Virus record (IMG/VR): IMGVR_UViG_3300031772_000104
Span: 1-39,395 of that record
Source of the DNA: a virus
DNA length: 39,395 nt
Reading direction: 5' to 3' (one strand)
Shown in pieces: positions 8,349 through 38,619 of this stretch. The position numbers were made by a program, and so were the translations under genes. Positions within the stretch are counted from its first letter, which is position 1. Every line of letters begins with the position of its first letter. The notes under the pieces were generated by a model. The model did no database searches, was not told the DNA's origin, and was given only the letters and a program-made list of their open reading frames with translations.

Positions 8349-8360
8349 ATATATATGTAT
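8349..8360 (-). promoter_or_regulatory. ATACATATATA box before the 548-aa gene
   Basis: The minus strand reads ATACATATATAT, centred about 20 nt before ATG 8334. There is no ribosome binding site between the box and the start codon. Confidence 0.6.
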
Positions 8361-8786: not shown

Positions 8787-9224
8787 TTAACTTTTTTTTC
8801 TTAATGCTTGCATATAATGGTTAACACACATTCCTTTCGCATAAGGTTTCTTTCCACATATTTTGCATGGGCCTTGTTTATGCTTTCTGCTATCTCCATT
8901 CTTATTATGCAGTCTGGTGTGACAGGCAGCACAAAGAGTAATGAGATTTTCTGGGGTATTGTTTGTTTCATCTTTATCTATATGATGTAAAGAAATCCTC
9001 ACTGTACTTATACAACCCGGTGTTTCGCAATGGTCTTTCCTGAGAGGTCTGGCTCTTTGTAAGAGTGTTCCGGAAGTTACTCTATTAGGGTCATTTCGTC
9101 GGTGTTTTCCTACGCACTGTATAGAACAAAACTTTCGTTGATTAAAATGAGGGTCTTTTTGCCCTCCTGGAAAGACCTTCCTTAACATTGTTCTTCCACA
9201 GAATTCACAAATCTTTTCTTCCAT
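8787..9224 (-). CDS. HNH homing endonuclease with flanking zinc fingers
   Basis: A free-standing HNH nuclease, probably a homing endonuclease that spreads by cutting target DNA lacking it. Order: an N-terminal treble-clef-like segment (CEFCGRTM ... FCSIQC), the HNH core (SLHHIDKDETNNTPENLI then LCAACHTRLH), and a C-terminal Cys finger (CKICGKKPYAKGMCVNHY). The HH, N and H residues of the ββα-metal site are present. I choose ATG 9224 over an upstream ATG at 9257 because AAAGGT lies just before it. It has the same architecture as the HNH gene at 19649-20122. It borders the tRNA array, next to a broken tRNA. Confidence 0.85.
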   Translation of the reverse strand: MEEKICEFCGRTMLRKVFPGGQKDPHFNQRKFCSIQCVGKHRRNDPNRVTSGTLLQRARPLRKDHCETPGCISTVRISLHHIDKDETNNTPENLITLCAACHTRLHNKNGDSRKHKQGPCKICGKKPYAKGMCVNHYMQALRKKS

Positions 9225-9260
9225 ATTATTACCTTTATGTCCTCGACATAGTATCACGTC

Positions 9261-9559: not shown

Positions 9560-9637
9560 TGGTGGGCGTAATGGGAGTCGGACCCACATTTTTCAAGGTT
9601 AGAAACCTTGTGCCATATCCAGTTAGGCGATACGCCC
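9560..9637 (-). tRNA. tRNA-Arg (UCU)
   Basis: Acceptor GGGCGTA/TACGCCC, D-stem GCC/GGC, anticodon stem CAAGG/CCTTG with loop TTTCTAA (UCU). T-loop TCCGACT. Discriminator A and encoded CCA. One base separates it from tRNA-Gly. Confidence 0.92.
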
Positions 9638-9650
9638 GTTTGAAGATGTT

Positions 9651-9726
9651 TGGCAGGCGCGGTGAGAATTGCACTCACGATTTGCAGATTAGGAATCTGC
9701 TTCCATGTCTTCTTGGATACGCGCCT
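9651..9726 (-). tRNA. tRNA-Arg (CCU)
   Basis: Acceptor AGGCGCG/CGCGCCT, D-stem TCCA/TGGA, anticodon stem GCAGA/TCTGC with loop TTCCTAA (CCU), T-stem GTGAG/CTCAC. Discriminator G and encoded CCA. Confidence 0.92.
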
Positions 9727-9734
9727 TTTTGATA

Positions 9735-9809
9735 TGGTAGGCGCAACAGGAATCGGACCTGTACTCGACAGTGTATCAGACTGTTGCATTACCATTATGC
9801 TATGCGCCT
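9735..9809 (-). tRNA. tRNA-Ile (GAU)
   Basis: Acceptor AGGCGCA/TGCGCCT, D-stem GCAT/ATGC, anticodon stem ACAGT/ACTGT with loop CTGATAC (GAU), T-stem ACAGG/CCTGT. Discriminator A and encoded CCA. Confidence 0.94.
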
Positions 9810-9821
9810 ATATATAGTTAT

Positions 9822-9898
9822 TGGAGGGCACGGCAGGATTTGAACCCGCATAGTGCAGAGTTCGTGGCTCTGTGCATTGTCCGTTTTGCTACGTGCCC
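9822..9898 (-). tRNA. tRNA-Arg (ACG) with C33
   Basis: Acceptor GGGCACG/CGTGCCC, anticodon stem CAGAG/CTCTG, T-stem GCGGG/CCTGC, discriminator T and encoded CCA. The loop is CCACGAA: anticodon ACG, but position 33 is C rather than the near-universal U. A34 is also unusual in archaea, where wobble inosine is not normal. Confidence 0.85.
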
Positions 9899-9901
9899 GT
9901 A

Positions 9902-9976
9902 TGGTAGACACTGGAGGACTCGAACCTCCTTAAGACAGTTTGTAAGACTGCCCTCCATCCTACAGAGTCAGTGTCT
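9902..9976 (-). tRNA. tRNA-Val (UAC)
   Basis: Acceptor AGACACT/AGTGTCT, D-stem CTC/GAG, anticodon stem GCAGT/ACTGT with loop CTTACAA (UAC), T-stem GGAGG/CCTCC. Discriminator A and encoded CCA. Confidence 0.94.
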
Positions 9977-9981
9977 ATGAT

Positions 9982-10059
9982 TGGTAGTCCCTGGAAGACT
10001 CGAACTTCCGTTGCAGGGCTTCAAAGACCCGCAGGCTTTACCCGTTACCTCAAGGGACT
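9982..10059 (-). tRNA. tRNA-Gln (UUG)
   Basis: Acceptor AGTCCCT/AGGGACT, D-stem AGG/CCT, loop CTTTGAA (UUG) on an imperfect stem (GGGT/GCCC), T-stem GGAAG/CTTCC. Discriminator A and encoded CCA. Confidence 0.88.
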
Positions 10060-10065
10060 GCGATA

Positions 10066-10141
10066 TGGAGCCCCCAGAGGAAGTTGCATCCCCGACTTCT
10101 CCGTTACAGGCGGAGTGCTCTGCTGTCTGAGCTATAGGGGC
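10066..10141 (-). tRNA. tRNA-Thr (UGU)
   Basis: Acceptor GCCCCTA/TGGGGGC, D-stem GCTC/GAGC, anticodon stem CTCCG/CGGAG with loop CCTGTAA (UGU, U33 present), T-loop TGCAACT. Discriminator T and encoded CCA. One base from tRNA-Phe. Confidence 0.93.
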
Positions 10142-10142
10142 T

Positions 10143-10216
10143 TGGTGGAAACAGCCAGAATCGGACTGGCATCATGAGGTCTTCAGCCCCACGCTCTCCC
10201 ATTGAGCTATGCTTCC
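10143..10216 (-). tRNA. tRNA-Phe (GAA)
   Basis: Acceptor GGAAGCA/TGTTTCC, D-stem GCTC/GAGC, anticodon stem TGGGG/CCTCA with loop CTGAAGA (GAA), T-stem GCCAG/CTGGC. Discriminator A and encoded CCA. A TTTAAATA box lies just upstream. Confidence 0.94.
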
Positions 10217-10243
10217 ATTGTATTTAAAGGTTTTGAAAGGAAT

Positions 10244-10324
10244 TGGCGGGTCTGGTGCGATTCGAACGCACGATTGTGCTGGATTAAAAGTCCAGTGCCT
10301 TAATCCTAGCTGGGCCACAGACCC
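10244..10324 (-). tRNA. tRNA-Lys (UUU)
   Basis: Acceptor GGGTCTG/CAGACCC, D-stem GCC/GGC, anticodon stem CTGGA/TCCAG with loop CTTTTAA (UUU), T-stem GTGCG/CGCAC. Discriminator G and encoded CCA. Confidence 0.95.
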
Positions 10325-10334
10325 GTATATGATA

Positions 10335-10437
10335 TGGTGGAAACGGAGGGATTCTTCCCTTTGCTGCACATTTCTTGGAACAGAATGGCCCCATGCCATC
10401 TGCGTGACAGGCAGATATTCTTCCACTGTACTATACG
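10335..10437 (-). pseudogene. tRNA-Asp-like structured region, non-canonical
   Basis: The minus strand has an intact Asp-type anticodon arm (TCTGC, loop CTGTCAC = GUC, GCAGA) preceded by a D-arm-like GTACAGTGGAAGAATAT. No matching T-arm or acceptor follows. Instead there is a hairpin ATGGC/GCCAT, and TGGAAGAAT can pair with ATTC(TG)TTCCA to close both hairpins. A further tRNA-like end (CGTTTCC ACCA) lies at 10335-10345. It is either a decayed or rearranged tRNA-Asp or a structured RNA derived from one. Confidence 0.45.
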
Positions 10438-10445
10438 ACCTTGAT

Positions 10446-10521
10446 TGGTCGAGCAACCAGGAGTCGAACCTGGGAAAAGGCGGTCTACAGCCGCCCACAT
10501 TAGCCGTTCTGTCATTGCTCG
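10446..10521 (-). tRNA. tRNA-Tyr (GUA)
   Basis: Acceptor CGAGCAA/TTGCTCG, anticodon stem GGCGG/CCGCC with loop CTGTAGA (GUA), T-stem CCAGG/CCTGG. Discriminator A and encoded CCA. Confidence 0.92.
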
Positions 10522-10528
10522 TGATTGA

Positions 10529-10603
10529 TGCTCCCTGTGGAAGTTGAATCCACGTTTTAGGGTCGAAGGCCCCATGTCCTTGACCGGGCTAGACTAAGGG
10601 AGC
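10529..10603 (-). tRNA. tRNA-Glu (UUC) with C33
   Basis: Acceptor GCTCCCT/AGGGAGC, D-stem GTC/GAC, anticodon stem TGGGG/CCCTA, T-stem GTGGA/TCCAC. The loop CCTTCGA gives UUC, but position 33 is C. The 3' end reads A then TCA, so CCA is not encoded. Confidence 0.86.
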
Positions 10604-10750
10604 ATAGTCGGGGCTACCGGCTTTACCCGGTTTGTTCCATACCTTCAATGGTTTAAGCATTTCTTCCATCATTACACGATGGACTAATCGTACTCTGCCA
10701 TCTATCTGTTTATGTTCGTATGTAATGACTTTCATTTTATCACTCGGCAT
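10589..10750 (-). pseudogene. truncated HNH endonuclease N-terminus (53 aa)
   Basis: ATG 10750 follows GAGAGGTA and an ATACATATATA box. Its residues RLVHRVMMEEMLKPLK align by eye with NAHRVLMEEYLGRPLK, the start of the HNH protein at 11605-12060. The frame then leaves the family and stops at TAG 10589 inside the tRNA-Glu D-arm, before any HNH residues. This is most simply a decayed homing endonuclease; a small functional protein cannot be ruled out. Confidence 0.6.
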
Positions 10751-10783
10751 TACCTCTCGTCTACATCTGCTCTATTGGCCTTA

Positions 10784-10795
10784 CTATATATGTAT
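10784..10795 (-). promoter_or_regulatory. ATACATATATA box before the truncated HNH gene
   Basis: The minus strand reads ATACATATATAG, about 40 nt before ATG 10750 and downstream of tRNA-Leu (UAA). Confidence 0.55.
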
Positions 10796-10820
10796 GGCTA
10801 TATTTATACTTTTCGGTTAT

Positions 10821-10907
10821 TGGTAGGGATGGTCGGAGTCGAACCGACGTTGTTGCCTACGTACTGCGTTTTAAGCGCAGCGCCTTCGGCCACTTGGCTA
10901 CATCCCT
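10821..10907 (-). tRNA. tRNA-Leu (UAA)
   Basis: Class II tRNA. Acceptor AGGGATG/CATCCCT, D-stem GCC/GGC, anticodon stem CTGCG/CGCAG with loop CTTAAAA (UAA), long variable region, T-stem GTCGG/CCGAC. Discriminator A and encoded CCA. Confidence 0.93.
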
Positions 10908-10912
10908 ATGAT

Positions 10913-10999
10913 TGGAGGGGATAGCAGGGTTCGAACCTGCGTAAGCTCTGCAGCAACGGGTTCTAGGCCCGTCCCAATTGACCACTCTGGCATATCCCC
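10913..10999 (-). tRNA. tRNA-Leu (UAG) with C33
   Basis: Class II tRNA. Acceptor GGGGATA/TATCCCC, anticodon stem ACGGG/CCCGT, long variable arm, T-stem GCAGG/CCTGC. Discriminator T and encoded CCA. The loop CCTAGAA gives UAG with C at position 33. Confidence 0.88.
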
Positions 11000-11004
11000 A
11001 TTAT

Positions 11005-11091
11005 TGGCGGGTGCGACAGGATTTGAACCTGCATGTCCTTTCGGACGCTGGTTTTCAAGACCAGTTCCTTGAGCCATTAGGATACACACCC
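11005..11091 (-). tRNA. tRNA-Ser (UGA)
   Basis: Class II tRNA. Acceptor GGGTGTG/CGCACCC, D-stem TCC/GGA, anticodon stem CTGGT/ACCAG with loop CTTGAAA (UGA), variable-arm hairpin GTCC/GGAC, T-loop TTCAAAT. Discriminator G and encoded CCA. Confidence 0.94.
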
Positions 11092-11095
11092 ATAG

Positions 11096-11168
11096 TGCTC
11101 TCGCAGAGATTTGCACTCTGAATCCCAACGTGAGAGGCTGGAGTCTTTTCTGATTAGACTACGAGAGC
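11096..11168 (-). tRNA. tRNA-Glu (CUC)
   Basis: Acceptor GCTCTCG/CGAGAGC, D-stem GTC/GAC, anticodon stem CCAGC/GTTGG with loop CTCTCAC (CUC), T-stem CAGAG/CTCTG. The 3' end is A then CTA, so CCA is not encoded. Confidence 0.92.
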
Positions 11169-11174
11169 GTTTGA

Positions 11175-11248
11175 TGGAGACGGCGGGAGGATTTGCACCT
11201 TCATACACGGCTCTGCAGGCCGCTGCATAGCTGTTCTGCCACGCCATC
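11175..11248 (-). tRNA. tRNA-Cys (GCA)
   Basis: Acceptor GATGGCG/CGCCGTC with one G-T pair, D-stem GCA/TGC, anticodon stem GCGGC/GCCGT with loop CTGCAGA (GCA), T-loop TGCAAAT with one stem mismatch. Discriminator T and encoded CCA. Confidence 0.9.
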
Positions 11249-11253
11249 ATGAT

Positions 11254-11328
11254 TGGTGGGTTCAGAGAAAGTTGCATTCTCATTCTCGGTTCTGGAGACC
11301 GGAGTTCTGCTGATTGAACTATGAACCC
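11254..11328 (-). tRNA. tRNA-Trp (CCA)
   Basis: Acceptor GGGTTCA/TGAACCC, D-stem GTTC/GAAC, loop CTCCAGA (CCA), T-loop TGCAACT. Discriminator A and encoded CCA. One outer anticodon-stem pair is mismatched. Confidence 0.92.
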
Positions 11329-11333
11329 AAAGG

Positions 11334-11450
11334 TTCCCCCAGACGGAGTTGAACCGTCACTTCCTTTCCCAGAATCTCGTGGTCTGTGGTCCTTGGTTCC
11401 CACCACCTATGAGCCTTGGTTCTAGCGTCCTATCGTTGGACTATGGAGGA
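11334..11450 (-). tRNA. tRNA-like gene with 47-nt anticodon-loop region, identity undetermined
   Basis: Acceptor TCCTCCA/TGGGGGA, D-stem GTCC/GGAC and T-stem GACGG/CCGTC are clear. A candidate anticodon stem CTAGA/TCTGG encloses 47 nt instead of 7. Inside, GAACCAAGG occurs twice and GTGGT/ACCAC can pair, as expected of a structured intron. The variable region is 10 nt and the 3' end is A then CCT. Excision after ACCAAG would give anticodon CAA with C33, but CAU (CTCATAG) is also present, so I do not assign an amino acid. Confidence 0.55.
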
Positions 11451-11454
11451 TTGA

Positions 11455-11582
11455 TAGTCCTGGGTAGACTCGAACTACCGTTCCCAGATATCTTCGAAGT
11501 AATCTCGCCATGGTCGCAAGCGAGACATAGACGGCGACTACGTCTTCAGAGTCTGGTGTCATTGCCGCTAGACTACAGGACT
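11455..11582 (-). tRNA. tRNA-Gln (CUG) with intron
   Basis: Acceptor AGTCCTG/CAGGACT, D-stem GTC/GAC, T-stem GGTAG/CTACC. The anticodon stem CCAGA/TCTGG is perfect once a 56-nt intron (11490-11545) is removed between positions 37 and 38, giving loop CTCTGAA (CUG). The acceptor resembles tRNA-Gln (UUG). The 3' end reads A then TCA, without CCA. An intron at 37/38 is the usual archaeal position. Confidence 0.88.
11490..11545 (-). other. 56-nt tRNA-Gln intron
   Basis: The intron lies between A37 and A38. It is highly structured: GAAG near the 5' splice site pairs with CTTC near the 3' end, and TCTCGC pairs with GCGAGA around a central loop. TCT of the anticodon loop can pair with AGA at the intron end, leaving a short bulge, consistent with a bulge-helix-bulge substrate. 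It is too short to encode an endonuclease. Confidence 0.75.
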
Positions 11583-11592
11583 TTGCATTCTA

Positions 11593-11602
11593 CTATATGT
11601 AT
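11593..11602 (-). promoter_or_regulatory. ATACATATAG box before tRNA-Gln
   Basis: The minus strand reads ATACATATAG about 16 nt before the tRNA-Gln 5' end; TTAAATA lies a few bases further upstream. One of these probably drives the tRNA array. Confidence 0.5.
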
Positions 11603-11604
11603 CT

Positions 11605-12060
11605 TTATGTATTTAAGCCTTTCTTAATATGATTATGAACTGTTTGTCTATTCAATCCATATTTGTTCGCTATTTGATAACTGCCCAACCCATTTTTTAA
11701 TCCTTCCTTGATGAATTCGTCAATGTCCGTTCTGGGAACGATTGCCGATATTCCACTATCAACTATACACTTTTTTGAACAGAACTCTTTTTGGTTGTTT
11801 TTAATATTCTTCCTATGGATTCTGACCGGTCTCAAGAAAACATTATTACATTGCGGGCAGTTTAGTTCTATATATTCCGTCTTTTTATGATGTAATGAAC
11901 TGTGTTTTCCTCTAGACATTAATTCAAGATTTTCTATTCTATTGTCTGTTTTGTCTCCATTTATATGATGGACCACTTCGCTGGATTTTAACGGTCTGCC
12001 AAGATATTCTTCCATTAATACTCTGTGGGCGTTTCTTTTTCCTATCCATTTGTATTTCAT
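11605..12060 (-). CDS. HNH homing endonuclease with C-terminal helix-turn-helix
   Basis: Residues 1-60 form an HNH_3-type nuclease: AHRVLMEEYLGRPLK, then VVHHINGDKTDNRIENLELM and HSSLHHKK. A Cys4 zinc-binding segment follows (CPQCNNVF ... FCSKKC, about residues 68-96). The C-terminus has a helix-turn-helix (GSYQIANKYGLNRQTVHNHI) that likely adds DNA specificity. The gene lies between a tRNA-Gln 5' half (12085-12114) and intact tRNA-Gln (CUG), so it probably homed into a tRNA-Gln gene. Its ATACATATAG box abuts the tRNA half and lies about 19 nt from ATG. Confidence 0.9.
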   Translation of the reverse strand: MKYKWIGKRNAHRVLMEEYLGRPLKSSEVVHHINGDKTDNRIENLELMSRGKHSSLHHKKTEYIELNCPQCNNVFLRPVRIHRKNIKNNQKEFCSKKCIVDSGISAIVPRTDIDEFIKEGLKNGLGSYQIANKYGLNRQTVHNHIKKGLNT

Positions 12061-12073
12061 ATTATCACTAATA

Positions 12074-12083
12074 CTATATGTAT
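12074..12083 (-). promoter_or_regulatory. ATACATATAG box before the HNH gene
   Basis: The minus strand reads ATACATATAG directly after the broken tRNA-Gln half, and the HNH ATG follows about 19 nt after the centre. GTGATAAT before the ATG may act as ribosome site. Confidence 0.55.
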
Positions 12084-12084
12084 A

Positions 12085-12114
12085 GCTGATGTCGTTCCGT
12101 TAGACCATAGGACT
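12085..12114 (-). pseudogene. 5' half of a tRNA-Gln gene
   Basis: The minus strand reads AGTCCTA TG then GTCTAACGGAACGAC, matching the acceptor strand and D-arm of tRNA-Gln (CUG) at 11455-11582 (AGTCCTG, GTCTAGCGGCAATGAC). It breaks inside the anticodon stem, where the promoter box of the HNH gene begins. A TTTAAATA box (12136-12143) sits about 25 nt upstream, as for a working tRNA promoter. Confidence 0.7.
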
Positions 12115-12158
12115 GTTGTGTTATGTTCTTCTGTCTATTTAAAGTTATTGGCGTGAAT

Positions 12159-12728
12159 CTATAAACTTAGATGACAGTTTGCACATAAACATCTGCATTT
12201 ATTCAATTCTCTACACAATCTATCTACCGAAGAATTATGATTCAACATATTACATATCATATCCTCTTTTTCTTCTGGGTTTATGTGGTGAAAATCAAGA
12301 CATTTTAAATCAGACTCTCCACAAATTTCACATTTTAAATTAACTACGAATTCATTATACCATCGTTGAGTAGTAGTGTTGTGACTTAATTTCTGTTTAT
12401 TGAACTCTTTTCCCAGTTTTCTATGGCAATTTTCACACAATATCTGACACTTCTCTATTTCTTTCAATATTATTTCTTTTTTTCTACAGTTAGACACCAT
12501 ATTAGCAACAGTATCACTTTTTAATGTTGCGTCCAAATGGTGAAAGGATATTGCCCTGGGTGCATCTTTTCCACTAAATCCACACTTACTGCATGATAAC
12601 GTTTTCTTATATTCTTTAAACCACTCCCTTCGTTTTCTTTTGTTTTCCATTGTACGTTCATATGTTTCATTCTTATGATTAACATACCACTCGTGTCTTG
12701 CTTTTTTATGTTTTTCAATATCTCTCAT
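12159..12728 (-). CDS. tandem HNH endonuclease
   Basis: A 189-aa protein with two copies of a Cys-HNH module. Module 1 (about residues 45-108): CSKCGF, SFHHLD, then ILCENCHRKL. Module 2 (about 131-189): CEICGES, DFHHINPEEK, then CLCANCHLSL. A basic N-terminus (residues 1-42) probably binds DNA. The protein stops right after the last motif. It is likely another free-standing homing endonuclease in the tRNA array, upstream of the HNH gene and downstream of tRNA-Ser (GCU). The duplicated layout may mean one chain contacts two half-sites. Confidence 0.82.
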   Translation of the reverse strand: MRDIEKHKKARHEWYVNHKNETYERTMENKRKRREWFKEYKKTLSCSKCGFSGKDAPRAISFHHLDATLKSDTVANMVSNCRKKEIILKEIEKCQILCENCHRKLGKEFNKQKLSHNTTTQRWYNEFVVNLKCEICGESDLKCLDFHHINPEEKEDMICNMLNHNSSVDRLCRELNKCRCLCANCHLSL

Positions 12729-12744
12729 GTTCGAATACCATTGA

Positions 12745-12754
12745 TAATATGTAT
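12745..12754 (-). promoter_or_regulatory. promoter-like box before the tandem HNH gene
   Basis: The minus strand reads ATACATATTA, about 21 nt before ATG 12728. Confidence 0.45.
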
Positions 12755-12772
12755 ACTTCGTACACTTGAAGG

Positions 12773-12853
12773 CGGAGTGGAGGAGAATCGAACTCCCGAA
12801 CCATTACGGTCACAGATTAGCAATCTGTCACATTACCACTATGTTACCACTCC
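12773..12853 (-). tRNA. tRNA-Ser (GCU)
   Basis: Class II tRNA. Acceptor GGAGTGG/CCACTCC, D-stem ACAT/ATGT, anticodon stem ACAGA/TCTGT with loop TTGCTAA (GCU), variable arm GACC/GGTTC, T-stem GGGAG/CTCCT. The 3' end is G then CCT, so CCA is not encoded. It is the first gene of the array in transcription order. Confidence 0.93.
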
Positions 12854-15158: not shown

Positions 15159-15170
15159 CTATATATGTAT
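15159..15170 (-). promoter_or_regulatory. ATACATATATA box before the glycoside hydrolase
   Basis: The minus strand reads ATACATATATAG, centred about 30 nt before ATG 15134, the spacing expected of a normal archaeal TATA box. Confidence 0.65.
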
Positions 15171-18683: not shown

Positions 18684-19652
18684 TTATATTTGTTGGCGCC
18701 AATACTCAAGTAAATCCTCTAAGGACTTGTCCCAAGTATATTCTGGTGTCCAATCAATATACATCTTGACCTTGGTATTGTCCCCTATGAGCAATGGAAC
18801 ATCTGACGGCCTCATCCTATCGGGGTCCTCTTGTCTGCTGATTGGACAACTGGACTTAAGCGCCAGTTCGTCAAATACGTCTAACATACTATGTCCTGTT
18901 CCAGAACATACGTTGACGGCTTCTCCGTTCCATTTTCTCTTCGATAGCAACCAGTATGCTCTAACTGTGTCTCTCACGTCGGTGAAATCTCTTATCGCAT
19001 CCAAATTACCATGACGAAGGGTTGCTCTGGTCTTTCGTTCGATTTCTACGATTTGCTTGGCAAAGTTGCTATCCACGAAAGCCTCAGCGCGTCTTGGTCC
19101 AGTCATATTGAACGCTCTTGTGACTAAAATATTCATCCCATAACTTTGAGCGTATTGATATCCTAACTTATCTGCGGCCACCTTACTTACCCCGTATGGA
19201 CTTAGTGGTCTCAGCGGTTGTGATTCTGTTATAGGACACTCGTGAGACAACACCTTACCGTATTCCTCGGAAGAACCACTTATGGCTAAGAATTGCTTCC
19301 CATATCCCCAACTTGAATTCTTCATTGCGTCCAATACATTCAGCGTTCCAATGACATTCGTTTCCATAGTATCCGTTGGGGCACTCCAGGAAGTTGGGAC
19401 GAACGTCTGTGCAGCCATGTGAAAGACCTTATCCGGTCCGACCTTATCGAATACGCCGAACACCGATTTATGGTCTTTCAGTTCCATTTCCAACAGTGTT
19501 ATCTGGTCCATTACATGCTTGATATTCTTCTTATCTGACAATCGTCTGACAGTTCCGTATATCTCAACATCTGGCTCGTTTTCCAGAAGATAGTCAATCA
19601 TATGACTGGCGCAAAAACCATCACAACCAGTTATCAATACCTTTGTCGTCAT
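18684..19652 (-). CDS. GDP-mannose 4,6-dehydratase-like SDR epimerase
   Basis: Extended short-chain dehydrogenase that modifies a nucleotide sugar, probably GDP-mannose, for a deoxy sugar. The Rossmann motif is TGCDGF near residue 8. SGSSEEYG and SPYGVSK supply the serine and Tyr-x-x-x-Lys catalytic residues. GNLDAIRDFTDVRD and the C-terminal RPSDVPLLIGD match the GMD/RMD group; which of the two activities it has is not certain. At 322 residues it is complete. Its start overlaps the end of an HNH gene that sits on the stub of another epimerase gene (MNTKVLITGAGG). Confidence 0.85.
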   Translation of the reverse strand: MTTKVLITGCDGFCASHMIDYLLENEPDVEIYGTVRRLSDKKNIKHVMDQITLLEMELKDHKSVFGVFDKVGPDKVFHMAAQTFVPTSWSAPTDTMETNVIGTLNVLDAMKNSSWGYGKQFLAISGSSEEYGKVLSHECPITESQPLRPLSPYGVSKVAADKLGYQYAQSYGMNILVTRAFNMTGPRRAEAFVDSNFAKQIVEIERKTRATLRHGNLDAIRDFTDVRDTVRAYWLLSKRKWNGEAVNVCSGTGHSMLDVFDELALKSSCPISRQEDPDRMRPSDVPLLIGDNTKVKMYIDWTPEYTWDKSLEDLLEYWRQQI

Positions 19653-20122
19653 TTTTTCACTTCCAGTTCAATTTCATATAATTTTGATATTTTATTATAT
19701 TTTATCAATGGAGAACCGTTTGCCTTCAATCGTTGATAGTGTTTTGTACATAGACCGACACCATAATGCTCGCCCCCACATATCAAACACGGTAGACCGG
19801 GTGGACGGGGGCTGCCCCTTTCATCATAATGTAATTTACTATGACAATTCGCACAAAGAGTTACAAGGTTCTTAGGGTCATCGTTATAACGATTTTGGTC
19901 CTTATGATGGACCGCCAATAAATGATTACCTCCGCATAATTCACAGCAATTCTTTAGAGCAACTACTCTGGCTCTTGCAGATAACGCATTCTGAGTTGGA
20001 AATTCTTTTCGCTGGCTTTTCCCTTCACATTTATGATTACAAAACTTCCTCTCGGAATACCTCCCAGGATGTTCATTCGGTCTTCTTTTTATAATGTTTC
20101 CGCAAAACTTACAATTTACCAT
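19649..20122 (-). CDS. HNH homing endonuclease inside the glycan cassette
   Basis: Same layout as the gene at 8787-9224: a Cys segment (CKFCGNIIKR ... FCNHKC), a second pair CELCGG, the HNH core (AVHHKDQNRYNDDPKNLV, LCANCHSKLH) and a C-terminal finger (CLICGGEHYGVGLCTKHY). ATG 20122 is favoured by GGGAGGA 9 nt before it; a longer frame to 20224 overlaps the FkbM stop and epimerase stub. It ends four bases into the GMD-like gene. The spot between an epimerase start and an epimerase gene suggests it homed into a sugar-nucleotide gene. Confidence 0.85.
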   Translation of the reverse strand: MVNCKFCGNIIKRRPNEHPGRYSERKFCNHKCEGKSQRKEFPTQNALSARARVVALKNCCELCGGNHLLAVHHKDQNRYNDDPKNLVTLCANCHSKLHYDERGSPRPPGLPCLICGGEHYGVGLCTKHYQRLKANGSPLIKYNKISKLYEIELEVKK

Positions 20123-20166
20123 ATAATGATTCCTCCCGCGCCCGTGATTAGAACCTTGGTATTCAT
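20116..20166 (-). pseudogene. N-terminal stub of an SDR epimerase gene
   Basis: ATG 20166, with GGAGGAAT upstream and a TTTAAATAG box at 20203-20210, encodes MNTKVLITGAGGIIIW then stop. The first 12 residues match the GMD-like neighbour's start (MTTKVLITGCDG) and give a typical GxxGG NAD-binding start. The rest is cut off where the HNH gene begins. Confidence 0.7.
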
Positions 20167-20202
20167 GAGTATTATTCCTCCTATATTCTAATATCTTACA
20201 AC

Positions 20203-20210
20203 TATTTAAA
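20203..20210 (-). promoter_or_regulatory. TTTAAATA box before the epimerase stub
   Basis: The minus strand reads AGTTTAAATAGTTG, related to the boxes at 23179, 28982 and 33442. Confidence 0.5.
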
Positions 20211-20211
20211 C

Positions 20212-21036
20212 TTATGGGACCCACGCATGCAACTTTTTCTTCTTTTGGACGATTTTGTAGTTAGGATTGGCTTTCATGATTACCTCTCTGATAACTTCTG
20301 GGTCGTCTGGGAGATGATAAGTGCATATTGATAATTCCGGAGCCATTGTCTTTAAGACGTTTGTCGCTCCCATGAGCATATATCTCTCATTGCCCTCTAT
20401 ATCCACTTTGATAAAATCAATTCTATAAATATCATTATCGCTCACAAATTTATCCAGAGTAATGACCTTTATCTTATCTGAATTAAAGAAAGGGGAAATT
20501 GTTTTTATAGGGTATCTCAACGACCCGGGAGTAAAAAATATATATTCTATCACTCTCTTAAAGTCTGTAGTATCCATTCCATTATAATGTTTATATCTAA
20601 ATAATCTTACGGTTTTACATTCATTACTCAGTCCCATCGGAACCGGATGAATAGAGGGGTTCAACTCTGCGGTTTTCTCCAGCCATTTAAAGGTTTTCTT
20701 GGATGGTTCGAATGCATATACCGTTGCTCCTTTGAATGCTGCATATGCGGAAAAATCTCCTATAAATGCTCCAGCATCGATTACAACGTCTCCTGGCTGA
20801 ATGTCTCTCTCGTGTATATAAACGCCCTCTCCACCAATATTCTCTATATCCTCATTGGTGTAGCCGATATGATTTCCCAATGAATCTAACAATAACAATC
20901 CATTTATCGCCGGTTCGTAAGTCGTTCCCTTAACATTCGCTAACAACACTCCATTCACGTCATAGTGCGTTCCACGATAAAATCTGTTTCCATAGTTTAT
21001 TATTTGTTTCTTATCGTTAAATTCGATATCATCCAT
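20212..21036 (-). CDS. FkbM-family SAM-dependent methyltransferase
   Basis: 274 residues. The SAM-binding start is VVIDAGAFIGDFSAYAA with AFEPS after it; IDFIKVDIEGNERYML is the typical FkbM acidic loop. Such enzymes usually O-methylate sugars in glycans or antibiotics. The N-terminal 80 residues are a lead-in with no known fold. The start overlaps the GT2 stop by 37 bases, so the pair is coupled. Its probable job is to methylate the sugar chain built by the neighbouring transferases. Confidence 0.88.
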   Translation of the reverse strand: MDDIEFNDKKQIINYGNRFYRGTHYDVNGVLLANVKGTTYEPAINGLLLLDSLGNHIGYTNEDIENIGGEGVYIHERDIQPGDVVIDAGAFIGDFSAYAAFKGATVYAFEPSKKTFKWLEKTAELNPSIHPVPMGLSNECKTVRLFRYKHYNGMDTTDFKRVIEYIFFTPGSLRYPIKTISPFFNSDKIKVITLDKFVSDNDIYRIDFIKVDIEGNERYMLMGATNVLKTMAPELSICTYHLPDDPEVIREVIMKANPNYKIVQKKKKLHAWVP

Positions 21037-22055
21037 CCCTTTATCCCCCCTAATGCATATATTTCCGTTCCCATTTCTAATATTCTCATTTTATATCCAG
21101 AAGTAAATTTGAGGAAACTCTCATCGAATTTCTCGGCGAATAATATATTAATATATTTTCTAACTATGAAATTACTGGTTCTAATTCCAGTTATGATTTC
21201 ATGTTCCTTCCATTTAGGAAATTCGACATTCAAGATACTGGTCATGTCTTTAACGGTTTTTATCCTATCTTTTCTTTCGACATGGCGTAGGAAGAACAAT
21301 GCAGAAGTTGCACTCCATGTCAAATCATCCTCAATCAACTCCCACTCTTCATCCGTAAACAAATTCCGCTCCAATTTCAATTCTCTCCAAACACAGATAA
21401 TATCCTCAAACACATACACTCTGCCGCTCTTATTTCGTATCAAAGATGTTGGGGTTATATTATAATAATATGTTATTTTATCCACTACTGTTGTTTTAGC
21501 ATACTTTGGCGTCAAATATGCATTGACTCGGTCTTCGTGTGTTTTAATATTAGGTCTAAAATATAATTTTGTTAGGAACACGTGTCTATCAAACAACGTA
21601 GGATGCGTGGATGTAGTGCATATCTTAGATTGCCCATCTTTAGAATATTTGAATGGTGCCACTATTTTCTTTTTACCTCCTGGATACCTCAGTTCCATCA
21701 ACCCTCCCACCCAATCAGCATTGGTTCTTTTTATCTCTCCCAACATTTCCTTTATCGCTCTGGGGGCAAGTTCATCGTCCCCGTCGATGAACATTATATA
21801 CTTCTCTGTAGCATCTTTCGCCACAGCATTTCGCATTTCACCAACAAAACAATGAGACTTGTGATATATCTCTATGAAATTAACTCCCTCCGCGAATTCT
21901 TCACATATTTTCAACGTATTATCAGTAGACCCTTCATCATAGGCAATCGTTAACTTAAAATCCCCCACCCATTGGTCTATTACGGATAATAAGCATTTAC
22001 CAATATATTTCTCATTATTATACGCCGTTACTATTACATTCAATTCATAACTCAT
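21000..22055 (-). CDS. GT2-family glycosyltransferase
   Basis: 351 residues. The GT-A fold starts NVIVTAYNNEKYIGKCLLSV, with AYDEGSTDN as nucleotide-sugar site and MFIDGDDE as metal-binding DxD variant. The remaining part is helical. It overlaps the GT4 stop by 11 bases and follows a GGAGGAAT site, so the two are translated together. It transfers a sugar to a glycan on the virion or host surface; donor and acceptor are unknown. Confidence 0.9.
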   Translation of the reverse strand: MSYELNVIVTAYNNEKYIGKCLLSVIDQWVGDFKLTIAYDEGSTDNTLKICEEFAEGVNFIEIYHKSHCFVGEMRNAVAKDATEKYIMFIDGDDELAPRAIKEMLGEIKRTNADWVGGLMELRYPGGKKKIVAPFKYSKDGQSKICTTSTHPTLFDRHVFLTKLYFRPNIKTHEDRVNAYLTPKYAKTTVVDKITYYYNITPTSLIRNKSGRVYVFEDIICVWRELKLERNLFTDEEWELIEDDLTWSATSALFFLRHVERKDRIKTVKDMTSILNVEFPKWKEHEIITGIRTSNFIVRKYINILFAEKFDESFLKFTSGYKMRILEMGTEIYALGGIKGWMISNLTIRNK

Positions 22056-23154
22056 TCAATTCCTCCAAGAATTGTTTGGTGCAGTTTTCTCCATCATATT
22101 TCTTACTTTCTTCCTTAGCGTTATCCGCCATCGCCTGAATCGGGCGATAATCCTCTCCTACCCCTATCATACAATTCAATAACTGCGGGGAATTTTTAGG
22201 AGATGTCAATATTCCCGTTTTCATATGTATTACGGCTTCGGAAGACGCTCCCGAATCGGAAGATATTACTGGGAGCCCGACCTTCATTGCCTGAATATTG
22301 ACTAAGACTATTCCCTCCTTTATATAAGTGGGATTGACCAACACATCTGCTTCGGATAATATCTTATACATCTTCTGTTCTTCCACATATCCCAATATCT
22401 CGATTTTAGGGTTGCTGCCATACTTTCTTTTCAATTCATCAAGATACGCTCCACTCCCAATGAATACACACCTTGAATTGGGAAATAATTTATTATACTC
22501 GACAAACGTTTCAGCGAGTATGCCTGGTCCTTTTCCCTCATACATCCTTCCTAAGAACACGAATGTAAATGGTGGTCCATCATCAGAATAATTACGATAT
22601 ATGGTCTTGCGGGAATAACTGCTGGGCATATCTAAAGGAGTAGTGAGTATGGAACTTTTCACCCCGGTTTCTTTCTCCAACACGTTTGCAGAATTGTGAT
22701 TCAAAGCTACGACCTTGCTGATTCTATGAACGAAAAAATGCTCATTTATATAATAAAGATAATTGAACGGTTTGATTCCATATCCATGTATCTCGAACTC
22801 ATCGTTCAATATGCCTACAACCTTCTTACCAGTAATTTTACTAATATACCAACCATACATTGAATGTTGAATACTCGGTAAAATTATTACATCGGGGTCA
22901 AATTTTTTCACGACATTTATATATCCTGCTAATCTAGATACGAATGATGTTAATATTCCCCTGACACGATATATAACATATCCACACTCTACATCTTTAT
23001 CAACTTTCTTAGATTCTTTTGTAAGTTTATATGAAGCTGTAGCTACAGTATGCCCCATCTCGGTGAGATGTTTAGCATAGGTGTGCATGACCATTTCTTG
23101 GCCCCCACCGAGACAATCTTGCTTATTGAATCTAGAAATAAACAATATCCTCAT
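22045..23154 (-). CDS. GT4-family glycosyltransferase
   Basis: 369 residues with GT-B fold: N-terminal loop GGGQEMVMHTYAKHLTEMGH, and C-terminal half FVFLGRMYEGKG then EADVLVNPTYIKEGIVLVNIQAMKVGLPVI, with the Glu-x7-Glu type retaining site (EGIVLVNIQA). It is the first gene of the glycan cassette. A TTTAAATAC box (23179-23186) lies about 30 nt upstream and there is no ribosome site, so this transcript is probably leaderless. Confidence 0.92.
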   Translation of the reverse strand: MRILFISRFNKQDCLGGGQEMVMHTYAKHLTEMGHTVATASYKLTKESKKVDKDVECGYVIYRVRGILTSFVSRLAGYINVVKKFDPDVIILPSIQHSMYGWYISKITGKKVVGILNDEFEIHGYGIKPFNYLYYINEHFFVHRISKVVALNHNSANVLEKETGVKSSILTTPLDMPSSYSRKTIYRNYSDDGPPFTFVFLGRMYEGKGPGILAETFVEYNKLFPNSRCVFIGSGAYLDELKRKYGSNPKIEILGYVEEQKMYKILSEADVLVNPTYIKEGIVLVNIQAMKVGLPVISSDSGASSEAVIHMKTGILTSPKNSPQLLNCMIGVGEDYRPIQAMADNAKEESKKYDGENCTKQFLEELNEL

Positions 23155-25409: not shown

Positions 25410-25422
25410 TTTATATATGTAT
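25410..25422 (-). promoter_or_regulatory. ATACATATATA box of the portal gene
   Basis: The minus strand reads ATACATATATAAA, about 24 nt before the portal ATG. It overlaps the last codons of the small gene at 25424-25683. Confidence 0.6.
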
Positions 25423-28125: not shown

Positions 28126-28139
28126 TTATATATATGTAT
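28126..28139 (-). promoter_or_regulatory. ATACATATATA box of the portal operon
   Basis: The minus strand reads ATACATATATATAA, only about 16 nt before ATG 28116, closer than a normal TATA box allows for a transcript including the ATG. Confidence 0.6.
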
Positions 28140-33441: not shown

Positions 33442-33449
33442 TATTTAAA
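33442..33449 (-). promoter_or_regulatory. TTTAAATA box before the nuclease gene
   Basis: The minus strand reads GGTTTTAAATACTTGAAAGG, overlapping the last codons of TerL, about 28 nt before the GTG start. Confidence 0.55.
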
Positions 33450-36400
33450 ACCTTTTGCTATTCTTGGTCGTCACTCGTATAGCATTCAATATATCGCTCC
33501 CGCCCTTATTCCCAAATTCAGAATGAGCATTTACTTCCGCATCAGTAGGCATTAAGAAGTCTACATTACCGATATATCTTGCCGTGTGATTTAACTTCTG
33601 ATTTAGAACATTGAACGCGCCGGACAGTCCATCAACTACATCGTCATGGTCGGCTTCTGGGAAGGTCTCCAATTGGTCCATTGCTGTCGAATACCAGTCA
33701 TCGGTTCTTCTCGACCACGCAATTTTAATCAACTCTTTCTCTGACGCCGCTGATAATGGGCGGGCACGGGTCTCTTTATCCCCAGAAACTCTATCTGGGT
33801 AAAATCTATGTCCTGGAGGGATTACCTTTCGTTTATAATGGTCTATACTATGTATACCCGCGCTCCCTGGTTCTTTCTCCATATAAATCGACGTATCTGT
33901 CCCATCTTCAATCGCACAGTTGTATATCTCTCTTTCCACCTCTCTTGGGGATTTATGTAATATCCTCATATCCAATATATAGAATACTCCGGCTTTCTTA
34001 TCATATCCCAAATGACACCCCACCGTCGCATCCCCATCAACCGTTGCTGCCATATCCCAATATCTGACCTTCTTCAAATCCGGGTATGGGACTTTGGCAT
34101 ATGGAACCTTTTCGAACCACATGCGGCTGAACATATTACCCATTGCGCGTATCTCCCAATTTCCCTCTGCTAATTGCGCTCTGGTGACCGGGTCTAACTT
34201 GTTTAGAGAATCTGTATATGATACTCTATCTAAGAACGGATTATCCCTGGCTAATGACGGGACGAACATGGGCATTCTATATCGTATATATTCTTCGGTT
34301 ATCAACTCTTTTGGCATGTTATTCTTTTTCGCCAAGTCAATTATATCCGCCCGTATTGCTGGACGGGTTCTCTTATTGACAAATCTATTATACACCCACT
34401 CTGTATTACCGCTGAACCAAACCGCACCATTTTGTCGGATGATGAATGATTCTGTATTCTCTACTGTTATACAATAGATTTTACCTTTATAATTATAATG
34501 CTGTGCGGGGGTTTTTGTTTTAACAGAAGTATTGACATCATAAACATGATTTCCTGTGTTAATTACCGTTCCTCCACATTTGGTCTTTTTGAAACTGACA
34601 TGATATTGTCTAAGGTTTCCATTAATTAATCTTCCTCTTATATTTCCACCATTTCTCGCTGCCGTTTCTCTGAATAAGACACTATATCCCAATTTCAATG
34701 CTATTTCACCCATATCATCACAAAGTTGTTTCGATGTGCTAGTATATTTCACAGGAATTGTGTTTTTACGGGTTCCGTCGCCATCTATCATAGCATCAAA
34801 CAATATTTGTAATTGTCTTCTACTTAAATTCTTATATTCCTTCGGAATGAACTTCTCATCACATAATCCAAACTGTCTGAAATGTTCATAAAGATTTGCA
34901 TAATATAATTTGAAATCTTTTTCGTTATAACTATATTTTAATCCTATTCTATTTAATAGATTTTTAATTTTATCTACTCCTTCTGGTTTACTCTGGGATA
35001 TACTAATCCCTTTATCTCTATGAATACAACTTCCCTCGGTCAAGAACCATCCTAAAAATTCTAGAAAATCGTCTCCATTTATCACTTCTGGATTATCTCT
35101 GTTCTTCCTGTGTGCTGGTGAAATCACAAACTCCTTCAATTCTTTTTCAGAATCGTAATTACAGCTCCTCAGTAACCCAATCTGTCCCGGACATTCATCT
35201 AAATGTCTTATAGTTATAGATGAATTTTCAGATTTTATATTATCAATACTACAAATTCTATGATTTGGAGTACATTCTATATGCATGCCTCTATAAACAA
35301 ATTTCTTCATTTCCCCATCATAATCAGCAACGGTGTTTCCTATCACTTTAGATGTTTTGAGAGTTCTATATTCGTCCACAGAATAAACCATTTCCCCCGC
35401 ACGAATATTTTTAATATCCTTCCATCCTTCAGTAGTGAGAACTTCCCCAAAGGGAACACAGTGTTCTCCATTCGGGTTGGTAGTTGCTCTCATCCTAAGA
35501 GGTATGCCAAGTGCTTCCTGTTCTTTATTCCTCACCAAACGAGAGAACAAGAAAGAGTATGTCTCTTCAGGCTGTTGAGTTAGTTCATCAAATCCAATGA
35601 ATTGATAGGATTGTCCGATATAGTTGTATTTATCCCGCTCGGACTCTAAGTGTCCAAATCCTAAAATCGCTCCACTGGGGAACTCCCACTGTTTGAGTTT
35701 ATCATCCCAACGCACTCCATCATCCTCCCACTTCTTGAACCAATTCATGCTAACTGGGATAAGACCGTCACCTTTGGATAACTCTTGATAGGTCTTTCTG
35801 AAGATTATGGCGTTATACGTTGGTATGTCTACATATTGAGTGGCAGCCATTAATAGAGAAATACTATTATGAGTGACGATGAAATCCTCAACTAAAAATA
35901 ACCCGGATGGATGTTCTATGGTTATACATCTTGTTGGTTGTTTTCCCATATATTCCACAGAATCTAATCTTAAACATGGGTCGGTTATACCTCCCATATA
36001 TGATTGCCCCCCTCTTCTAAGTTTCTTCCTTGAAATTCCTATATAATTTTCTCCATTCTTTATCTGTATCCAAACTGTATAAGCAATTCTGCCTTCTTTT
36101 TTAACTTCTTCGTAAGTATAAGTAGGTATTTTATCAGTTATAGAAGCACGACCTCCCAAAGAACGCACAACCCATTGAACGTCTTCAGCTAACTGTTTGC
36201 TAGTCGTAGTATAACTCATATGCCCACGGTCATCTATATATCCATCCGTATCCATCAATCCTTTCAATAAATCAGTTCTAATAGCAATAGATGCCAATTT
36301 ATAATACTTTGGAATAAACTTTTCATATGAATATTTTCCATATAATCCATATAACTTTAAATTTTCGGTAAGTTCACATACGTCTCCTATTATACTCGCA

Positions 36401-37116
36401 GCAGATTCATTTATCGTTAATTTCCATCCAGTACGTTTTTTAACCTCCTCGAATACTTCTAAATCTATTCCTGATATAGAATACCAGTCTTCATTTGTAA
36501 TACACCCGTCTCCAAGTAATACTCCAAGCACATATGGTTCTATTCTAATCATATCTTTTTTATAACTTTTAGTGAACTCAACCGCATCTGTAAGCGGAAT
36601 TAATAAATTCTTTTTTAATTTATAATCCATTTTTTTCTCATTCTCAAACCATTCTAAAATCCTTTTTGTATCCCAAATTACATACGACCCTTCCTCTGGA
36701 GTGTTTCTGTTTGCTTTTCGATAACTACCATCCGACGTTTTAATCTTCCATAAATGTTCTAAATCACAAATTACAGTCCTACCATCTTGAAAAGTAAATT
36801 TATAAGTATCTTGTTCTCCTCTTTCATAAACTCTAAGAACTTTTGTATTTGTACCAAATGGAGTTGAAATTACATCTCCTTCTTCTAAATCCCCAAATCT
36901 ACGTGGACCAAACGGCGTTATTACCTGAGTTAACGCCGTTAACCCTTTGCCACCACGAGTGGCACCACCATACAATGCTTCCATGATATTCAATCTTAAG
37001 AAGGCCAGCTGGTTGGCGAATGGTAAGTATCGTTCGAACTTGTTCCATCTTATTAATTTGTTTATATCCACGCCGTTTATCTGTGCGTTCACGGCGTCAT
37101 TTTGACTATCGGTCAT
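33445..37116 (-). CDS. terL: terminase large subunit with two inteins
   Basis: DNA-packaging motor. The 1223-residue frame contains two inteins, leaving an extein of about 511 residues. ATPase part: Walker A GGATRGGK-S (interrupted after Lys57 by intein 1), Walker B YQFIGFDELTQ, coupling motif ATTNPNGEH (intein 2 after it). Nuclease part: YWDMAATVDGD, YMEKEPGS and ADHDDVVDGL, the acidic residues of the RNase H fold. TerL is nonfunctional until both inteins are spliced out. An ATACATATATA box lies about 20 nt before ATG 37116, with no ribosome site. Confidence 0.95.
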   Translation of the reverse strand: MTDSQNDAVNAQINGVDINKLIRWNKFERYLPFANQLAFLRLNIMEALYGGATRGGKGLTALTQVITPFGPRRFGDLEEGDVISTPFGTNTKVLRVYERGEQDTYKFTFQDGRTVICDLEHLWKIKTSDGSYRKANRNTPEEGSYVIWDTKRILEWFENEKKMDYKLKKNLLIPLTDAVEFTKSYKKDMIRIEPYVLGVLLGDGCITNEDWYSISGIDLEVFEEVKKRTGWKLTINESAASIIGDVCELTENLKLYGLYGKYSYEKFIPKYYKLASIAIRTDLLKGLMDTDGYIDDRGHMSYTTTSKQLAEDVQWVVRSLGGRASITDKIPTYTYEEVKKEGRIAYTVWIQIKNGENYIGISRKKLRRGGQSYMGGITDPCLRLDSVEYMGKQPTRCITIEHPSGLFLVEDFIVTHNSISLLMAATQYVDIPTYNAIIFRKTYQELSKGDGLIPVSMNWFKKWEDDGVRWDDKLKQWEFPSGAILGFGHLESERDKYNYIGQSYQFIGFDELTQQPEETYSFLFSRLVRNKEQEALGIPLRMRATTNPNGEHCVPFGEVLTTEGWKDIKNIRAGEMVYSVDEYRTLKTSKVIGNTVADYDGEMKKFVYRGMHIECTPNHRICSIDNIKSENSSITIRHLDECPGQIGLLRSCNYDSEKELKEFVISPAHRKNRDNPEVINGDDFLEFLGWFLTEGSCIHRDKGISISQSKPEGVDKIKNLLNRIGLKYSYNEKDFKLYYANLYEHFRQFGLCDEKFIPKEYKNLSRRQLQILFDAMIDGDGTRKNTIPVKYTSTSKQLCDDMGEIALKLGYSVLFRETAARNGGNIRGRLINGNLRQYHVSFKKTKCGGTVINTGNHVYDVNTSVKTKTPAQHYNYKGKIYCITVENTESFIIRQNGAVWFSGNTEWVYNRFVNKRTRPAIRADIIDLAKKNNMPKELITEEYIRYRMPMFVPSLARDNPFLDRVSYTDSLNKLDPVTRAQLAEGNWEIRAMGNMFSRMWFEKVPYAKVPYPDLKKVRYWDMAATVDGDATVGCHLGYDKKAGVFYILDMRILHKSPREVEREIYNCAIEDGTDTSIYMEKEPGSAGIHSIDHYKRKVIPPGHRFYPDRVSGDKETRARPLSAASEKELIKIAWSRRTDDWYSTAMDQLETFPEADHDDVVDGLSGAFNVLNQKLNHTARYIGNVDFLMPTDAEVNAHSEFGNKGGSDILNAIRVTTKNSKRF
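34405..35460 (-). mobile_element. intein 2 of TerL, LAGLIDADG type
   Basis: 352 residues (553-904). Starts with Cys (CVPFGEVLTTEGW), ends VWFSGN and is followed by Thr (TEWVY) as the +1 nucleophile. Penultimate Gly replaces the usual His. Two LAGLIDADG-like helices (FLEFLGWFLTEGS, LQILFDAMIDGDG) suggest an active homing endonuclease. It sits directly behind the ATTNPNGEH coupling motif. Confidence 0.93.
35866..36945 (-). mobile_element. intein 1 of TerL, LAGLIDADG type, in the Walker A motif
   Basis: 360 residues (58-417), cutting GGATRGGK from SISLL. It starts with Gly (GLTALTQVITPFGP), which lacks the usual Cys/Ser nucleophile, ends FIVTHN and is followed by Ser. Two LAGLIDADG helices are present (VLGVLLGDGCIT, LLKGLMDTDGYIDD). 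Splicing by a variant route is implied. Confidence 0.92.
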
Positions 37117-37129
37117 ATACTATCATAGT

Positions 37130-37141
37130 TTATATATGTAT
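37130..37141 (-). promoter_or_regulatory. ATACATATATA box of terL
   Basis: The minus strand reads ATACATATATAA. The box is in a 71-nt gap that also carries a plus-strand box (TACATATATTA, near 37151-37161) for the divergent gene, so this is a two-way promoter region. Confidence 0.65.
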
Positions 37142-38605: not shown

Positions 38606-38619
38606 TAATATATATGTAT
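38606..38619 (-). promoter_or_regulatory. ATACATATATA box before the cupin gene
   Basis: The minus strand reads ATACATATATATTA and overlaps the last codon region of the small membrane gene upstream. Its centre is only about 11 nt from the cupin ATG. Confidence 0.6.

Follow-up and report, generated by a model that had tools for sequence, protein, structure and literature searches.

Two inteins of apparently different splicing class interrupt the terminase gene of a probable archaeal virus

Why does a virus carry two inteins in the ATPase motifs of one packaging protein, and do they act as a timer or as parasites? The question is raised by IMG/VR virus record IMGVR_UViG_3300031772_000104, of which we analysed positions 1 to 39,395 (39,395 nucleotides, hereafter the window), and specifically by the gene for its terminase large subunit (TerL) at 33445-37116 on the minus strand. 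As read from its sequence, the 1223-amino acid (aa) precursor very probably contains two autonomous mobile inteins of different lineages, which would excise themselves to leave a 511-aa TerL and would have spread by homing.

A single reading frame encodes a TerL interrupted twice

The TerL precursor is a single open reading frame (ORF) with no internal stops. Pfam identified Terminase_6N and Terminase_6C (PF03237, PF17289) in its 1223 aa, together with LAGLIDADG_3 (PF14528) in two stretches and a Hom_end match, and PHROGs assigned it to the terminase large subunit family phrog_979 (E 2e-87). Two in-frame interruptions were found, at aa 58-417 (360 aa, intein 1) and aa 553-904 (352 aa, intein 2). 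When the flanks were joined in silico by a script, the resulting 511-aa extein aligned with no gaps at either junction to the TerLs of the Methanobacterium phages psiM2 (the nearest named TerL) and PhiF3 and of a Gordonia phage. With the splice bond marked by an arrow, GGATRGGK↓SISLLM at junction 1 corresponds to GGAAGGGKSVALLM in intein-free TerLs, and ATTNPNGEH↓TEWV at junction 2 to ATSNPGGIGHEWV. All catalytic motifs of a Terminase_6 TerL are present in the joined extein (Walker A, Walker B, the C-motif and the acids of the RNase H-like nuclease), and the motif columns are invariant (alignment A1). These data confirm that a Terminase_6-type TerL is interrupted by two inteins. The extein parts are laid out as follows.

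33445..37116, minus strand: TerL precursor, Terminase_6 family, two in-frame inteins (ORF, Pfam, PHROGs)
36946..37116, minus strand: N-extein, aa 1-57, ending in Walker A GGATRGGK (extein alignment)
36946..36969, minus strand: Walker A GGATRGGK, aa 50-57, to be completed by S418 after splicing (K57-S58 invariant 4/4, alignment A1)
35461..35865, minus strand: middle extein, aa 418-552, with the Walker A Ser, Walker B IGFDELT and C-motif ATTNPNGEH
35461..35487, minus strand: C-motif region ATTNPNGEH, directly before intein 2
33448..34404, minus strand: C-extein, aa 905-1223, RNase H-like nuclease domain (Terminase_6C)

A first-pass annotation had placed two inteins of 360 and 352 aa at 33445-37116 in one terminase, one splitting Walker A between K57 and S418 and the other just after ATTNPNGEH, both with LAGLIDADG helices. 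The single ORF, the Pfam matches, the complete endonuclease motifs and the gap-free joined extein bear out each of these points, and the intein-free relatives that it proposed to look for do show the predicted junctions (psiM2, PhiF3, the Gordonia phage and the IMG/VR relatives below). It had overlooked the minus strand, the difference in splicing class and the Gly-Asn C-terminus of intein 2.

Intein 1 is a predicted class 3 intein at the Walker A site

Intein 1 lies between K57 and S418 of GGATRGGK↓S. Its first residue is Gly, with no Cys or Ser nucleophile there, so the usual first-residue nucleophile is not usable. It carries Trp66 in EHLW (block B), Cys340 in RCITI (block F) and the end THN↓S, which supplies the C-terminal Asn and a +1 Ser. 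Across eight aligned class 3-like inteins W66, C340 and T358 are constant and position 1 is variable; this Trp/Cys/Thr (WCT) triad is the signature of class 3 inteins (PMC7664689).

35866..36945, minus strand: intein 1, 360 aa, aa 58-417, predicted class 3 (Gly1; W66, C340, T358; THN↓S)
36748..36750, minus strand: Trp66, block B, W of WCT (invariant 8/8)
36505..36528, minus strand: LAGLIDADG motif 1, LGVLLGDG
36241..36270, minus strand: LAGLIDADG motif 2, LLKGLMDTDG
35926..35928, minus strand: Cys340, block F position 4, predicted initiating nucleophile (invariant 8/8)
35872..35874, minus strand: Thr358, block G, T of WCT (invariant 8/8)

The closest relatives of intein 1 are class 3 P-loop inteins, and its best solved relatives by sequence comparison include gp41-1 and class 3 MchDnaB-1 inteins. 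The predicted structure (pLDDT 79, pTM 0.83) combines a HINT and a LAGLIDADG fold; it matched the class 3 inteins MchDnaB-1 and MsmDnaB-1, with a TM by target of 0.81 (E 4e-5) for the class 3 structure 6rix and 0.80 for 6bs8. Both catalytic-acid LAGLIDADG motifs are complete (LLGDG and MDTDG). By these motifs intein 1 is assigned to class 3.

Intein 2 is a predicted class 1 intein after the C-motif

Intein 2 follows the Pro of the C-motif by a few residues. It begins with a Cys that is invariant in 17/17 homologues, has the block B sequence TPNH at 64-67 with T64 and H67 invariant (the TxxH pattern), and ends WFSGN↓T, with a C-terminal Asn and a +1 Thr. Its block A, B and G and LAGLIDADG residues are invariant or nearly so among the 17 homologues, all of which share the penultimate Gly.

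34405..35460, minus strand: intein 2, 352 aa, aa 553-904, predicted class 1 (Cys1, TPNH block B, Gly-Asn↓Thr+1)
35032..35064, minus strand: LAGLIDADG motif 1, LEFLGWFLTEG (E142/G143 invariant 17/17)
34774..34806, minus strand: LAGLIDADG motif 2, ILFDAMIDGDG (G227-D228-G229 invariant 17/17)

Here too both catalytic-acid motifs are complete (LTEG and IDGDG) and the predicted structure (pLDDT 86, pTM 0.87) shows a HINT plus a LAGLIDADG fold. For the models of both inteins the best solved matches were the endonuclease-bearing inteins PI-SceI (E 2e-17) and TliVMA (E 1e-16). The residue pattern places intein 2 in class 1. In three of its homologues (L255, L257, L264) the terminal Asn is replaced by Gln (TGQ↓S, CGQ↓S).

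Site 1 is sparsely occupied and site 2 empty among the relatives

From IMG/VR and genome contigs we collected 199 distinct relatives of the TerL; junction 1 could be read in 194 of them and junction 2 in 197. Alignment queries were used to obtain the IMG/VR members; queries consisting of one sequence (the extein, or either intein) returned no IMG/VR matches. Junction 1 is empty in 188/194 relatives and holds a class 3 intein at the identical Walker A Lys↓Ser bond in 6/194, and no site-2 intein was found in the 197 relatives covered at junction 2; these are lower estimates of occupancy, because the ranking of matches somewhat favours uninterrupted genes. Homologues of intein 2 in IMG/VR are scattered over many viral genes, and those in terminases lie ahead of Walker B or immediately past it; an insertion at site 2 was absent among them as well, those homologues occupying other genes or other terminase sites. 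A profile search of all ORFs in the window revealed no third intein.

The GK↓S/T bond of Walker A is the classic TerL1-a, or P-loop, intein site (PMC5050341). Class 3 inteins also interrupt it in more distant TerLs (Acinetobacter phage TaPaz, Parabacteroides phage PF672P2) and in superfamily 2 (SF2) helicases of jumbo phages. One further member of this TerL family carries two inteins: in L327 (IMGVR 3300032222_000131, ORF 2007-5441) the Walker A K↓S bond is occupied by a class 3 intein, and a class 1 intein belonging to the intein 2 family precedes Walker B (RYKGP↓C...GN↓S). This double-intein TerL is apparently unreported.

Two other TerLs showed inteins at different positions. In the TerL of L264 (IMGVR 3300050122_000029, ORF 3051-5747), a class 1 intein with a Gly-Gln↓Ser end lies ahead of Walker B, and a second intein (NES↓CLTGDT) starts where the nuclease domain ends and the frame stops. 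In the Methanomassiliicoccales virus vir335 (L249, BK063680.1) the TerL at 3845-5758 contains an unannotated mini-intein in its nuclease domain, at a site (FNH↓C...VSN↓CMDSLRY) resembling that of the second intein of Microcystis phage Mic1 (QDH↓C...SN↓CDALRY).

Composition and descent point to independent acquisition

Both inteins differ in composition from their host gene, with a GC content of 33.6% (intein 1) and 33.4% (intein 2) against 43% in the extein, and third-position GC (GC3) of 23 and 26% against 45%. Among 1056-bp windows taken elsewhere in the sequence, fewer than 1% are as GC-poor. The probability that 360 and 352 codons would stay open at about 34% GC is about 1e-15 and 1e-14, respectively, under a simple composition model, which, together with the HINT plus LAGLIDADG folds of both segments, excludes a chance origin of the open intein segments.

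In the intein tree, intein 1 groups with inteins of unrelated terminases and helicases (those of a jumbo-phage helicase, crAss-like phages, and Parabacteroides and Acinetobacter phage TerLs), apart from the inteins of its closest extein relatives (the starred split, 100/99). An approximately unbiased (AU) test rejected a single clade of the eight site-1 inteins from this TerL family (p 0.032). Since tree and test argue against descent of the family's site-1 inteins from one ancestor, they were likely acquired independently by homing, though this is not proven. Profile scores separate the two inteins clearly (418 vs 62 bits and 353 vs 59 bits for own vs other family), a gap that is somewhat inflated because the window sequences are part of those profiles. 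In vitro, terminase inteins homologous to these splice and cut alleles that lack the intein (PMC5050341).

Four free-standing HNH endonuclease-like ORFs lie elsewhere in the window, at 8787-9257, 11605-12060, 12159-12728 and 19649-20224 (all minus strand); with these besides both inteins, the virus is rich in mobile endonucleases.

Mobile parasites or a packaging timer

We propose that in intein 1 Cys340 would attack the Lys57-Gly junction and the N-extein would move to Ser+1, after which cyclisation of the Asn would join K57 to the Ser and restore Walker A. For intein 2, Cys1 would begin a classical N-S shift, the N-extein would move to Thr+1 and Asn352 would cyclise. The 511-aa TerL could then bind ATP and package DNA only after both splicing events. 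Each endonuclease would cut intein-free TerL genes of co-infecting viruses and so spread its intein by homing, the two having been acquired independently from different lineages. The ATPase motifs would be favoured as insertion sites because they offer conserved DNA targets and do not tolerate imprecise loss, which would be lethal. Mobile parasites are the explanation that best fits the low GC and complete endonuclease motifs of the inteins, their sporadic presence at these sites and their incongruent phylogeny.

Several points weigh against this picture. The AU p value of 0.032 is modest and a narrower six-row test gave p 0.072. The highest identity among the intein relatives, about 39%, is too distant for estimating the ratio of nonsynonymous to synonymous substitution (dN/dS). 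Moreover, intein 2 lacks the penultimate His, which is common in class 1 inteins, though not obligatory. The Gly in its place does not exclude class 1, because PMC4031507 cites literature in which inteins splice with no His at this position.

Because intein 1 interrupts Walker A, packaging presumably must wait for both splicings, as the first-pass annotation had supposed; its further suggestion of timing control has found no positive evidence. Waiting for splicing is not the same as regulation, and the two elements most likely reflect genetic parasitism, not timing by design. A gate retained for timing or stress, in which slow or conditional splicing of one or both inteins (through oxidation of Cys340, for example) delays packaging, is improbable, even though it has a precedent in Mycobacterium smegmatis DnaB, where a class 3 P-loop intein splices slowly and is blocked by oxidation, whereas a class 1 intein of that protein splices fast (PMC6195587), and although such 'fine control' has already been put forward for the Mic1 TerL (PMC7156551). 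The responsive DnaB intein is, however, the one without an endonuclease, whereas both inteins here keep an intact one, the pattern of active parasites. Occupancy (6/194 and 0/197) is sporadic, the window gives no hint of a signal, and 5/5 terminase inteins spliced readily in reporter assays (PMC5050341). As evidence for a packaging timer, the double-intein TerL is so far no more than suggestive. Slightly less probable still is the broader proposition that class 3 inteins entered archaeal tailed viruses and that this pair forms a two-step gate, one step of which (probably the Walker A intein) is conditional and sets the onset of packaging.

That one or both inteins are dead, TerL being a pseudogene or functional unspliced, is very unlikely. 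The substitution of the penultimate His of intein 2 would fit such decay, but no initiating or terminal nucleophile is missing, the 712 codons contain no stop, both endonucleases have complete motifs, the folds are predicted with confidence and the extein retains its catalytic motifs; nor is an ATPase expected to work unspliced when its Walker A K↓S bond is interrupted. Finally, we rejected a duplication in which one intein was copied from the other within the TerL gene, as scarcely credible: both are about 355 aa in all with LAGLIDADG endonucleases, and their profiles are detectably similar (the class 3 profile gives 61.6 bits on intein 2), yet the splicing classes differ, each scores far better with its own family, and the nearest relatives of intein 2 are class 1, GN-ended inteins of many other viral genes while those of intein 1 are the class 3 P-loop inteins.

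Comparison with known systems

The TerL1-a inteins of mycobacteriophages (Kelley et al. 2016, PMC5050341) likewise lie in a terminase ATPase directly behind the invariant Lys of Walker A and ahead of the next Ser/Thr, but in another terminase family and host, and intein 1 falls in a different clade. With intein 2, the TerL6-f inteins of B3/B4 mycobacteriophages (PMC5050341) share a Terminase_6-type protein, a C-motif insertion and a class 1 start and end. We read TerL6-f in Vincenzo (L252) and phi1_186018 (L253), B4-type relatives of Nigel; the junction there is IILIQ↓TRW, as opposed to NPNGEH↓TEW here, and the exteins are too distant for confident alignment. Site 2 was not equated with TerL6-f, since the junctions differ by motif reading.

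The Mic1 TerL (PMC7156551; L251) also has two inteins, one of them at the C-motif, but both begin with Cys (class 1 type), the sites are LLTG↓TPKG and the nuclease domain QDH↓C, and there is no Walker A intein. Because profile placement against the Mic1 and Nigel TerLs was too weak, the identity of site 2 rests on motif reading, by which it lies near, yet is distinct from, TerL6-f and the first Mic1 site. The crAss-like cMAG OBYQ01000140 (PMC7886860), compared by description, has two inteins in one TerL as well, of the Hint-Hop type and in a phage with stop-codon reassignment. L327 shares the TerL family, the class 3 intein at K↓S and a class 1 intein of the intein 2 family, but places the latter before Walker B and not after the C-motif. 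M. smegmatis DnaB (PMC6195587) similarly combines, in one ATPase, the class 3 DnaBi1 in Walker A with the class 1 DnaBi2 at a second functional motif; it is a bacterial replicative helicase, and DnaBi1 has lost its endonuclease whereas both inteins here retain one.

A double-intein TerL is thus already known (Mic1, OBYQ01000140), as is a single ATPase with inteins of both classes (M. smegmatis DnaB). The rarity that the first-pass annotation ascribed to two inteins in one archaeal-virus TerL is overstated for TerL generally, given Mic1 (PMC7156551), the crAss-like phage (PMC7886860) and L327.

The virus probably infects an archaeon

An archaeal tailed virus is the better reading of the window and the probable one, in support of the first-pass assignment. 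The window encodes a RadA/Rad51 protein (PF08423, E 2e-54) that is 55-56% identical to cellular RadA in three archaeal genomes. A search of 50,697 phage records gave RadA matches in haloarchaeal viruses only and portal matches in archaeal viruses only. TATA-like boxes (TACATATATA) precede many ORFs, nearly all on the coding strand; these boxes, with little or no room for a Shine-Dalgarno sequence, suggest archaeal promoters and leaderless transcripts. The one before TerL is listed here.

37131..37140, minus strand: TATA-box-like TACATATATA, 15-24 bases upstream of the TerL ATG

Boxes stand shortly before starts at, for example, 8350-8359, 15160-15169 and 25412-25421, with further ones at 28129-28138, 37131-37140 and 38609-38618 (all minus strand). 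Against an archaeal host count a predicted tRNA-Arg(ACG), a bacterial trait unusual for archaea, and the presence of close TerLs in bacterial genomes as well.

The window also holds a cluster of 18 predicted tRNA genes at 9560-12853 (minus strand), including Arg(ACG), with CCA encoded in those read. On the same strand are a 1932-aa ORF with a weak HD-domain match alone (890-6688), a 548-aa ORF with no Pfam or PHROGs matches (6688-8334), and a sugar-modification cassette at 18684-23154 (GDP-mannose dehydratase-like, FkbM methyltransferase and two glycosyltransferases).

Class 3 inteins and archaea

Class 3 inteins, believed to have originated in phages, have been recorded mainly in genes of bacteria and phages. 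Across 391 archaeal genomes, profile searches run with no positive control gave no class 3 match at the thresholds used. In the 197 genomes of one archaeal phylum the best match, in a UvrD-like helicase (L334), starts with Cys and was set aside as class 1, the weaker matches not being read individually; the 194 genomes of another phylum gave no class 3 match at E 1e-25 (no positive control).

Within the material searched, three features appear to be new: an insertion after NPNGEH, this virus's combination of inteins, and the presence of a class 3 intein in a virus that is probably archaeal. The last bears on how class 3 inteins have spread. The TerL precursor offers a natural case in which two inteins of predicted different chemistry must both leave one essential ATPase, and it could be used to compare the rates of class 3 and class 1 splicing in one native protein.

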